Of a DNA stretch of 64,000 bases, positions 600 through 37,575 are shown piece after piece (the first letter of the stretch is position 1; every line of letters starts with the position of its first letter). The notes beneath the pieces were generated by a model. The model did no database searches. It worked only from the letters and a program-made list of their open reading frames with translations, and was not told the origin of the DNA. The translations under genes were made by a program, and so were the position numbers. The stretch is from Candidatus Zixiibacteriota bacterium (GTDB lineage: Bacteria; Zixibacteria; MSB-5A5; GN15; FEB-12), in assembly GCA_040756055.1 (NCBI GenBank), contig JBFLZR010000002.1, positions 584,411 through 648,410 of the forward strand, written 5' to 3'.

Positions 600-1679
600 A
601 TGTTGCCCGAAGTTGAACAAGCCTTCTTGAATGCAATTTTGGCCGAACTTCCGTCAAATGGAGATACTGTCGGCAACTGGACCCTTATCAAGAAACTTAA
701 AAGCGATGGCCTTAGTGAGCAGGACTATTGGCACTTGCAGGATAAGCTCGTTCAGTCAGGAAGAGTAAAAAAGGGAAGGGGTAAGGGCGGTTCGTTGGCT
801 TTGGTTCTTGATGCATCGACAACAAATTCCACAAAGACCGAAGGTGACACCGCAGCCCCTGAAAGCACAGTTCCCGAAGATACTGAACTAAAGATCGACC
901 GTCAGAAGCGTAAATCACTCGCCAAATTTATCCTAGGCGAAGTCCCGTCGAATGGTTCTACTGTGAGCAACCAGTGGCTCATAGCTAAAGCAAAGAAGAA
1001 CGGTTTTACGGAGGACGAGTACTGGTTTGTCAGAAACGAACTAATTGACAACGGCACCCTGGGCAAGGCTAGAGGAAAAGGCGGAACAATATACCTCGTT
1101 GCGGGTACTGCAAAAACCGCTGAAAAACGTACTAAGAAGAAATATGCAAAGGAAAAATCTTTATACAAACCTTGCCATGATGTCATAATGGGTTTCTGGA
1201 TAAAAGACGCGGGTCTAGACCCTCGCAAATGTGTTACTCAGGTCACCGCCAATCAAGGAGGCAGAAAGACTGGCGGAAAATGGACCAGACCTGATATCAC
1301 GGTCATCTCGGTCAGAACGTACGAGTTCATTCCAGGCAAGATTCTGGATGTGACTACGTTTGAAATTAAGCCTGCCAATGACTTAGATGTAAAGGGCGTC
1401 TTCGAAGCGGCCTCGCATTCCCGGTTTGCCCACAAGAGCTACCTAGCGGTTCACCTACCCGACGGCAAGAAGGAAAGCGACGACTTCAAGAATTTGCAGA
1501 AAGAGTGTGAGCGATTCGGCGTCGGCTTCATATATTTCGAAAAGTCAGACGACTGGACAACCTGGGAGATTGTCACGGACCCGGATAGAAAAAACCCAGC
1601 TCCCGAAGAAGTGGATCGCTTTATCTCAACCCAAATGAGTAAAGAAAATCAGAAGGATATTCACGAGTTTCTCAAGTGA
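600..1679 (+). CDS. Double winged-helix protein with a C-terminal PD-(D/E)XK nuclease-like domain
   Basis: A 359-residue protein I do not recognise as a named family. It has a visible internal duplication: about residues 5-68 and 104-168 share the pattern PSNG-x-TV-x-N, LI-x-K, YW, L-x3-G and RGKGG near the end. Each repeat looks like a small winged-helix DNA-binding module whose wing ends in RGKGG, a pattern I associate with restriction-type proteins. The C-terminal half (about 185-330) carries RPDITVI with Asp232 and FEIK with Glu255 and Lys257. That is the D-(x)n-E-x-K signature of PD-(D/E)XK nucleases, on consecutive predicted beta strands, followed by a helix (VFEAASHSRFAHKSY) as in that fold. 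The ATG follows GGAGGGAAATCA. The gene stands alone, is visibly more AT-rich than its neighbours and is bracketed by duplicated terminators, which suggests acquisition. The nuclease assignment is motif-based inference; substrate unknown. Confidence 0.75.
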   Translation: MLPEVEQAFLNAILAELPSNGDTVGNWTLIKKLKSDGLSEQDYWHLQDKLVQSGRVKKGRGKGGSLALVLDASTTNSTKTEGDTAAPESTVPEDTELKIDRQKRKSLAKFILGEVPSNGSTVSNQWLIAKAKKNGFTEDEYWFVRNELIDNGTLGKARGKGGTIYLVAGTAKTAEKRTKKKYAKEKSLYKPCHDVIMGFWIKDAGLDPRKCVTQVTANQGGRKTGGKWTRPDITVISVRTYEFIPGKILDVTTFEIKPANDLDVKGVFEAASHSRFAHKSYLAVHLPDGKKESDDFKNLQKECERFGVGFIYFEKSDDWTTWEIVTDPDRKNPAPEEVDRFISTQMSKENQKDIHEFLK

Positions 1680-1742
1680 CTCGTATACTCGAAGCTAACC
1701 GCTGTTTCACCACCGTCCCTCGGAAAATACTTGGCGAATTCT

Positions 1743-1769
1743 AAAAAGCCGGCATGAGCCGGCTTTTTT
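1743..1769 (+). terminator. Rho-independent terminator (copy 2), downstream of the nuclease-like gene
   Basis: Stem AAAAAGCCGGC / GCCGGCTTTTT with loop ATGA, then T residues. It is a near-perfect copy of the terminator at 449-475. Confidence 0.8.
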
Positions 1770-1870
1770 CTTCAGAACCAACCGACCTTTTTGGTTGTTC
1801 TTGCTTCAAATGCCGTTATCCAACCACACCGACTTTTATGCCAATTAAGTCAAGATAGAAAGGGGTTAAG

Positions 1871-2341
1871 ATGAAAACGCTTGCGAGTCTCGTAACGGGT
1901 ATGGTAGCGATAATCCTTCTAACCGCGCCGGTCGCCTGGTCGCACTGTGAAATACCGTGCGGAATTTATGATGATTCGGTACGTGTCACACTCATGAGGG
2001 AAGACATAACGACTATCGAGAAGAGCATGGACGAGATTAACAAACTATCCGCCGAGGGTGATAAAAACTACAACCAGCTCGTGCGCTGGATTACCAACAA
2101 AGAAGCTCATGCCGACAAGCTCATGGGTATCGTGACACAGTATTTCATGACCCAGCGCATCAAACCGGCAACCGCCGACAACGCCCAAGCCTATGAGAAA
2201 TATCAGGAGGAAATTAGTCTTCTACATCAGATGCTGGTTTCGGCCATGAAATGCAAGCAGACCACAGACAAAGCCCACACCGCCAAACTCCGTGAACTGG
2301 TGGACAAGTTTGCGGCTTCGTATTTCGACCACACCCATTGA
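1871..2341 (+). CDS. sodN: Nickel superoxide dismutase, exported
   Basis: A 156-residue nickel-dependent superoxide dismutase. The catalytic nickel hook is HCEIPCGIYDD, beginning at His25: the family needs a free N-terminal His, Cys2, Cys6 and the HCxxPCxxY pattern, and all are present. The preceding 24 residues (MKTLASLV...APVAWS) form a classical Sec signal peptide: a basic start, a hydrophobic core, and small residues before the cut. Signal peptidase cleavage between Ser24 and His25 would expose the Ni-binding His. In Streptomyces and many marine bacteria the leader is instead short and removed by a dedicated protease (SodX); no sodX is adjacent here. The rest is the expected four-helix bundle. 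An AAAGGGG site precedes the ATG. The enzyme would act in the periplasm or outside the cell; the Fe/Mn enzyme at 39.7-40.3 kb has no signal peptide. Confidence 0.93.
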   Translation: MKTLASLVTGMVAIILLTAPVAWSHCEIPCGIYDDSVRVTLMREDITTIEKSMDEINKLSAEGDKNYNQLVRWITNKEAHADKLMGIVTQYFMTQRIKPATADNAQAYEKYQEEISLLHQMLVSAMKCKQTTDKAHTAKLRELVDKFAASYFDHTH

Positions 2342-24782: not shown

Positions 24783-24897
24783 TTACAGCGATTTGGCTTC
24801 GTTTCGATATTTGTGCCCGGTGAATCTTCTCGAAACTGTGCCCGGTGAATCTTCAGATTCACCGGGTATCCAGATTTGGCTTCGTTTCGTTATTTTT
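24783..24897 (+). repeat. Family C repeat: partial copy followed by a complete copy
   Basis: The complete copy (24838-24897) starts with GTG, then an 11-bp stem CCCGGTGAATC / GATTCACCGGG with loop TTCA (24841-24866), followed by a tail containing ATTTGGCTTCGTTTC. A partial copy with tail and half-palindrome precedes it at 24783-24829. A further tail-only fragment lies at 25043-25069. Confidence 0.8.
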
Positions 24898-25232: not shown

Positions 25233-25304
25233 AAACAGGAACCGTCAAGGATTCTGCCGTGATGGTGTATCCGTATTTTTCTGCGCAGTCCTCTATAATC
25301 CATT

Positions 25305-25364
25305 GTGCCCGGTGAATCTTCAGATTCACCGGATGTCCAAATTTGGCTTCGTTTTGTTGTTTTT
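25305..25364 (+). repeat. Family C repeat, complete copy
   Basis: GTG, then CCCGGTGAATC-TTCA-GATTCACCGG, then a tail with ATTTGGCTTCGTTTTG. Close to the copy at 24838-24897 over about 60 bp. Confidence 0.8.
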
Positions 25365-31086: not shown

Positions 31087-31159
31087 CTCACTGGATTCCG
31101 TTTTTCAACGGAATGACAGAAAGAGGGACGGAATGACAGAAAGGGGGACGGAATGACGC
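31087..31159 (+). repeat. Family B repeat with internal tandem 20-mers (copy 1)
   Basis: Begins CTCACTGGATTCCG with palindrome TTCCGTTTTTCAACGGAA, followed by tandem units of GGAATGACAGAAAG-(A/G)GGGAC. Confidence 0.8.
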
Positions 31160-31163
31160 GTCC

Positions 31164-31262
31164 GGGTGGCAGGCTCAAACTTGTTTGGGCCTGACAAAAG
31201 AAAACATCTCGACGGGTGGCAGGCTCAAACTTTGTTTGGGCCTGACAAAAGAAAACATCTCG
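31164..31262 (+). repeat. Two tandem family A copies
   Basis: Copies at 31164-31195 and 31214-31246, each GGGTGGCAGGCTCAAAC...TTTGGGCCTGAC and each followed by AAAAGAAAACATCTCGA, so the unit of about 50 bp is tandemly duplicated. Arms CAGGC / GCCTG can pair. Confidence 0.8.
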
Positions 31263-31321
31263 AGCGCATCCGTAGGCGTTTGATTTATCAAACGCGACAG
31301 TGTACAAACGGATCCCGCGTT

Positions 31322-31351
31322 GGTAGGCTCACGCCGCGGCGTGAGCTTACC
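31322..31351. repeat. 30-bp palindrome with one mismatch
   Basis: GGTAGGCTCACGCCG followed by CGGCGTGAGCTTACC; one mismatch between the arms. Confidence 0.75.
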
Positions 31352-31526
31352 ATGAGCGAGAGCACAAGACACACGAAAGCATAAAAACAACGAAGCAAAC
31401 CCAAATCGTGGTAATGGAATGAAAGGTATGGGCATATGGCAATTTTGCTGGCGCTGACATTTCGAGGCTTCCGAGAAGTCCTATCGCCTGAAGATCAGAT
31501 TTCTCCCTCTGGTCGAAATGACGTTG

Positions 31527-31635
31527 CTCACTGGATTCCGTTTTTCAACGGAATGACAGAAAGGGGACGGAATGACAGAAAGGGGGACGGAATGACGCGT
31601 CCGGGTGGCAGGCTCAAACTTTGTTTGGGCCTGAC
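31527..31635 (+). repeat. Composite of family B and family A (copy 2)
   Basis: Family B (31527-31599) followed by family A (31603-31635), in the same order and orientation as 31087-31195. Confidence 0.8.
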
Positions 31636-31756
31636 AATGGCGGATTCGAAGACGGGCCCGCCCTACTCTGGCCGTTATTGTGATACATATCGGAAATCAT
31701 CAAAAACCATCCTCCCGCGTTAAGCATTCTATCAAAAAAGCAGAAATAAGGACGTT

Positions 31757-36328: not shown

Positions 36329-36429
36329 AAAATGACGAAACAAAGCCAATTTGAGGCTAACCGGTACCCGGTGAGTCTGAAGATTCACCGGGCACAAAGA
36401 CATCTGAAGATTCACCGGGCACAACGAAG
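36329..36429 (-). repeat. Family C repeat, reverse copy with duplicated half-palindrome
   Basis: Read on the minus strand: two GTGCCCGGTGAATCTTCAG units, the second completing the hairpin, followed by a tail with TTGGCTTTGTTTCGTC. Same order as the complex copy at 24783-24897. Confidence 0.75.
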
Positions 36430-36434
36430 ACTAT

Positions 36435-36467
36435 GTCGGGGCCAAAGCAAGTTTGACCCTGCCACCC
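36435..36467 (-). repeat. Family A repeat, reverse copy
   Basis: GTCGGGGCCAAAGC...TTTGACCCTGCCACCC, directly beside a family-C copy, as families A and C also lie close in island 1. Confidence 0.75.
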
Positions 36468-36485
36468 GGCAGCACCTGACCGGGC

Positions 36486-36522: not shown

Positions 36523-37575
36523 ATGGACGACAAACGTCAGGAAATAAGCATTAAATTGACGGCCGAAGTCAGCTGCGCGGGTTGAGCTTCCAAACTGGCG
36601 CCAAAGTTTTTGGCGGAAGCATTGAAAAACATCCCGCAGTCGAACCACCCGAACCTTCTGGTCGGCTTCAATAAAGCCGATGACGCCGGGGTGTACAAAA
36701 TAAACGACTCACAGGCGCTGGTGCAGACTGTCGATTTCTTCCCGCCCATAGTTGACGACCCGCTGAATTTCGGGCGGATAGCGGCGGCAAACGCGCTTTC
36801 CGATGTTTACGCGATGGGTGGCACGCCGATTACCGCCTTGAACATAGTCGGGTTTCCCAGTGGTATGCCCGCCAGTGTCCTGACCGATATTCTCAAGGGC
36901 GGGTCGGAAAAAATCGAAGAAGCCGGCGCGGTGATAGTGGGCGGCCACTCGATCAAAGACAAAGAGCTTAAATACGGTCTGGCCGTCACGGGATTGGTTG
37001 ATCCGCAAAAAGTCCTGACCAACGCCACCGCCAGGCCCGGCGACAAAATCTACCTGACCAAGCCGCTGGGGACCGGCCTTATCACCACCGGTATCAAACA
37101 AAGCCGGGTCTCGCCCGAACTGACAACTATCGTAATCCGCCAGATGTCGCAGCTTAACAGAAAACCCGCCGAACTTATGGTAAAGCACCACGCGCACTCG
37201 GCGACGGATATAACGGGCTACGGTCTTCTCGGCCACGCGTACGAGATGGCATCGGCATCGGAAGTCACAATCCGAATCTATTCCGAGCTCCTTCCGCTTT
37301 TGCCAGAGGCGCTCGAACTTGCGGGGGCCGGGATGATACCCGGCGGCGCCAACGCCAACCGGGATTTTCTCGACGGTAAATACACACTGGTTAACGCCAT
37401 AGACAAGAATCTCGAACATGTCCTTTTCGACCCGCAAACATCGGGCGGCCTGTTTATAGCCATCGATGAAGCCAACGCCGCGAATTTCGAAAAAGACCTC
37501 GAAACCGAAAGAGTCTTCGCGATGCTTATCGGACAGGTCGAGGCCGCGGGGCAATATCCGCTGATAATAGAGTAA
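36523..37575 (+). CDS. selD: Selenophosphate synthetase, itself a selenoprotein (Sec at codon 21)
   Basis: A 350-residue selenide, water dikinase that makes selenophosphate, the selenium donor for Sec-tRNA. From ATG 36523 the frame reads MDDKRQEISIKLTAEVSCAG-U-ASKLAPKFLAEAL. The in-frame TGA at 36583-36585 (codon 21) stands at the catalytic Cys/Sec position of SelD (Cys17 in E. coli), followed by the near-invariant ASK-x-AP. The remainder is a full-length enzyme: LLVGFNKADDAGVYKI, QTVDFFPPIVDDP, DVYAMGG, IVGGHSIKDKELKYG, ATDITGYGLLGH and DPQTSGGL. A SECIS-like hairpin starts right after the TGA. If the TGA is taken as a stop, callers find only a shortened gene from a TTG near 36610. Followed 6 nt later by a membrane-protein gene. 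Confidence 0.93.
36586..36620 (+). promoter_or_regulatory. Bacterial SECIS-like hairpin for Sec insertion in selD
   Basis: Immediately after the TGA: outer stem GCTTCC (36586-36591) with GGAAGC (36615-36620); inner stem GCCAAA (36600-36605) with TTTGGC (36609-36614); apical loop GTT; an unpaired stretch on the 5' side. Counting the U of UGA as 1, the loop G-U lies at 24-25. That is close to the apical G-U of the E. coli fdhF SECIS, which SelB contacts. Confidence 0.75.

Follow-up and report, generated by a model that had tools for sequence, protein, structure and literature searches.

The window, i.e. the whole stretch of 64,000 nucleotides that was analysed from a Candidatus Zixiibacteriota bacterium (contig JBFLZR010000002.1 of assembly GCA_040756055.1), carries a reading frame that starts at an ATG and passes through an in-frame TGA, giving a product with the N terminus MDDKRQEISIKLTAEVSCAGUASKLAP..., where U marks the TGA. 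The features considered here are as follows:

36523-37575, plus strand: selD coding sequence, 350 residues, with ATG start, read through the TGA, and TAA stop at 37573-37575 (TIGR00476, 390.9 bits; 3u0o, E 1e-68)
36583-36585, plus strand: TGA codon 21, proposed selenocysteine (Sec), aligned to Cys17 of Escherichia coli SelD
36586-36620, plus strand: whole predicted hairpin, from the fold, including a weakly supported lower stem GCTTCC/GGAAGC
36600-36614, plus strand: bSECIS apical stem-loop GCCAAA(GTT)TTTGGC, from the fold and a comparative pairing test

With Cys replacing U, the product scores far above the TIGR00476 cut-off of 125 bits, and it also exceeds that of NF002098 (341.3 versus 299). 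In the alignment with E. coli SelD, U21 faces Cys17 and K24 faces Lys20, so that the N-terminal loop has the Cys/Sec and following conserved Lys by which SelD proteins are recognized. A sequence-only reading had proposed both the ATG frame through codon 21 into ASKLAP and the placement of the TGA at the catalytic Cys/Sec position of SelD, and both proposals are borne out. Its warning about gene callers that stop at TGA, and so miss the catalytic residue, applies to the mechanical list of open reading frames, in which selD begins at TTG 36610 and the Sec site is missing.

Two repeat families occur in the same region. The short repeat AAGATTCACCGGGCACAA is present in five copies in the window, against 0.09 expected, two of them just upstream of selD (sites at 36380-36424, 24811-24853 and 25303-25320). 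Members of a second family (CGGGTGGCAGGCTCAAACTT...) lie at 31087-31637 and 36434-36469, and one copy, in inverted orientation, is a short distance upstream of selD.

Conservation of the TGA codon

SelD was searched for in 61 genomes, i.e. this one and 60 relatives. A match was obtained in 55, and in 54 of these there is a stand-alone SelD with TGA, the site being inspected by eye in 30 of these loci. The single exception (G002) has a match limited to residues 88-350, which therefore misses the Sec site. One relative (G034) has an extra TAA inside the matched stretch, and in another (G050, a 98% complete assembly of 220 contigs) selA is present and no SelD match was found, which may reflect either a gap in the assembly or a true loss of the gene. 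A further relative has, besides its TGA-containing gene, a second, partial SelD-like match (G003:C1:3017116-3017676; query residues 164-350, 66% identical).

In a set of 100 homologues that includes more distant bacteria and overlaps in part with the 61-genome set, the codon at the Sec site is TGA in 81 and TGC or TGT in 19, with no others, even though the motif by which they were located allowed TGA, Cys, Ser, Ala or Thr codons there. An in-frame UGA aligned to the Cys or Sec of homologues, as is looked for in a bacterial selenoprotein, is therefore present. Among 49 unique Zixibacterial sequences the TGA is invariant, while the codons preceding it vary synonymously (six for Leu, four for Thr and four for Val). 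Fixed amid such variation, the TGA thus behaves as a Sec codon, unlike what is expected of a stop codon.

The same comparison bears on the proposal that the TGA is a true stop and that translation of SelD begins beyond it, at TTG 36610 or another start codon, with the first 20 codons lying outside the protein. The mechanical list does open at this TTG; however, with such a start the protein would be without its catalytic Cys/Sec, the 20 codons ahead of the TGA are conserved at the protein level with synonymous variation, a start codon stands at -20 in 48/49 of the Zixibacterial sequences, and the Cys-type homologues have their Cys at the position of the TGA. We regard a downstream start as very improbable. 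Close relatives with an ordinary stop or a Cys and another start would have told against the Sec reading; what they keep is the TGA together with the same upstream start region.

The hairpin downstream of the UGA

The predicted hairpin (minimum free energy -13.6 kcal/mol) consists of a lower stem, 36586-36591 paired with 36615-36620, and an apical stem, 36600-36605 paired with 36609-36614, closed by the loop GTT at 36606-36608. As a single sequence the fold is not significant (z = -1.55; 14/200 shuffles fold as well) and an Rfam scan of the selD locus gave only chance matches and no family. The single-sequence fold was thus dropped as proof of a SECIS in favour of a comparative test, with stem positions taken from the window's own fold and a null of 1000 draws in which synonymous codons were redrawn from each gene's own usage while the protein sequence was kept.

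In the 49 Zixibacterial sequences, which as relatives are not 49 independent observations, the apical stem retains 5.76 of its 6 pairs, against 3.34 +/- 0.14 in the null (maximum 3.82), and all six pairs are present in 82%, against 2.3%. The loop is GTT or GGT in 48/49, and relatives have compensating apical variants, e.g. GCCGGG(GTT)CCTGGC and GCCAGC(GGT)GCTGGC. Apical pairing is thus kept far more than chance allows. Support for the lower stem is weak, at 4.35 of 6 pairs versus 4.04 in the null, a value matched by 17/1000 draws. Of the two-part stem with a GTT loop that had been proposed from the sequence, the fold itself and the apical part stand, but the lower part is close to the null. 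Apical pairing in the 19 Cys-type homologues is at the null level (2.95 versus 2.81), although these are a weak control because they are also phylogenetically distant.

The described bSECIS consensus has a loop of 3-9 nt opened by G[G/U], an upper stem of 4-16 bp, a UGA-to-loop distance of 16-37 nt and a minimum free energy of at most -7.5 kcal/mol (PMC13188914). The selD hairpin, with a loop of 3 nt, a stem of 6 bp, GU, 20 nt and the energy given above, does not depart from it in any respect. A bSECIS downstream of the UGA, as sought in bacterial selenoproteins, is therefore present.

Selenocysteine machinery and the reading of the UGA

The genome is a 3.3 Mb metagenome-assembled genome of 12 contigs, 97.7% complete. 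Contig C8 carries a tRNA-Sec gene (selC; 69.4 bits, over the cut-off, anticodon TCA) and selA (524.8 bits), the latter immediately followed by selB (333.5 bits); selA and selB both score over their curated cut-offs. The combination of selA, selB and selC by which bacterial Sec users are recognized is thus present, as the sequence-only reading had predicted; absence of selB and selC, which it had named as evidence to the contrary, is not what the genome has.

It may be asked whether a near-cognate tRNA could read the TGA without SelB, with the hairpin merely assisting read-through and the residue not being Sec. Non-Sec UGA read-through at the same position has been proposed for hymenopteran SPS1 (PMC4561486), but those insects are without most of the Sec machinery, whereas selA, selB and tRNA-Sec are present here and the selD hairpin fits the bSECIS model. 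This explanation also has very little probability. Less probable again is that TGA has been reassigned throughout the genome and encodes one of the standard amino acids (Trp, Gly or Cys). Nothing was found in favour of this: 15/36 long non-overlapping open reading frames of the window end in TGA in the mechanical list, some abutting or overlapping the next one, SelD homologues alternate TGA with Cys only, and the Sec machinery is present. Similarly negligible is a base error or pseudogene in which a Cys codon (TGC/TGT) was misread as, or decayed into, TGA, a single base away, since it is already refuted by the conservation of TGA in 54 genomes and 49 distinct Zixibacterial sequences, with the frame otherwise open and the hairpin maintained.

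The conservation of the TGA, the protein family, the constraint on the hairpin at the RNA level and the presence of selA, selB and selC are established by the sequence itself. On these grounds, 36523-37575 is almost certainly selD, encoding selenide, water dikinase (selenophosphate synthetase), with the UGA of codon 21 being read as selenocysteine and not as a stop. From established knowledge of these families, the action of SelB on the selD hairpin, the presence of Sec in the SelD protein and its catalysis can be inferred. SelB with Sec-tRNA-Sec would bind the apical hairpin, which starts 14 nt past the UGA, and Sec would be inserted at codon 21, a site in the N-terminal loop that corresponds to E. 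coli Cys17. SelD would then make selenophosphate from selenide and ATP, which SelA would use in making Sec-tRNA-Sec, including the supply for SelD's own translation.

The proposed Sec21 lies in a C-A-G-U motif, in which Cys18, three residues before it, is Cys in 46/49 Zixibacterial sequences. It is conceivable, but rather unlikely, that Cys18 and Sec21 form a selenenylsulfide that gates or protects SelD, so acting as a redox switch on selenium activation.

Other candidate selenium users and comparison with known systems

A check for other TGA-containing redox genes, suggested by the sequence-only reading, was productive. The selenoproteome of the genome was probed with a few families only, and four further in-frame TGAs at redox sites were found (genome G000; coordinates are those of the loci L156-L158):

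C1, L156 10133-13240 and 14888-17671, plus strand: two genes of HdrA type, DC(A/S)IUILGP with U at an in-frame TGA, each with a GGTC-loop hairpin downstream
C4, L157 1021-1752, minus strand: AhpC/TSA-family peroxiredoxin, FVUPTE, TGA at the peroxidatic Cys position
C2, L158 about 1635-2120, minus strand: AhpC/TSA-family peroxiredoxin, TPGUNRQ, TGA at the peroxidatic Cys position

The two HdrA-type genes, the second of which has a C-terminal FlpD domain, are probable selenoproteins. Each TGA is followed at 27 nt by a GGTC-loop hairpin, with stems GGATGCC/GGCATCC and GGATGTC/GACATCC, which differ from each other by a compensating change. In both peroxiredoxins the TGA stands at what we take to be the peroxidatic Cys site of the family. 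The FVUPTE type also has TGA in 8 of the other 20 genomes searched and, in the AhpC-type gene, a hairpin AGCAGC(GGTC)GCTGCT at 17 nt, so that three of the other Sec candidates have GGTC-loop hairpins; a clear bSECIS was looked for in the TPGUNRQ gene and not found. Because of these HdrA and peroxiredoxin candidates SelD is not the sole candidate selenoprotein, and the idea of a Sec system serving itself alone was rejected. The genome gave no TIGR03167 match for selenouridine synthase, a second use of selenophosphate. Three matches to formate dehydrogenase-type molybdopterin genes have no stop within the matched domain, and the matched domains of CCG-domain genes are without TGA.

Among bacterial selenoproteins, FdhA and SelD are reported to have the widest distribution (PMC1794560; PMC13188914). 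The SelD studied here is like known Sec-containing bacterial SelD (TIGR00476; NF002098) in being a full-length AIRS/AIRS_C enzyme with a predicted Sec at the Cys17 position, a bSECIS right after the UGA, and selA, selB and selC in the genome. It differs in details only, i.e. the C-A-G-U motif, Ser23 versus Cys19 in E. coli, and the lineage-typical three-base loop G(U/G)U. The E. coli enzyme, aligned over residues 7-316, shares the same catalytic position, but has Cys17 where Sec21 is predicted here.

Several relatives have, beside the Sec-type SelD, a second SelD about 45-48% identical to the one described here and resembling the NifS-SelD fusions reported as NifS-SPS (PMC4561486). In the three that were read (L131, L132 and L133 of G035, G057 and G055), the sequence indicates a fusion with a NifS-like cysteine desulfurase and Cys at the site (GLGCACK). 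The SelD search of the 61 genomes did not find such a fusion in the genome studied here.

A Sec-containing selD is a well-known arrangement, ordinary in kind, and there is no departure from the known picture. In the literature searched, a single paper names Zixibacteria together with selenocysteine, and there Zixibacteria appear just as a recovered genome. The practical value of the results lies in annotation, in that a caller stopping at TGA shortens selD and drops the catalytic residue. For the little-studied Zixibacteria, the machinery, the conservation and the RNA-level evidence support a Sec-containing SelD throughout the sampled order.
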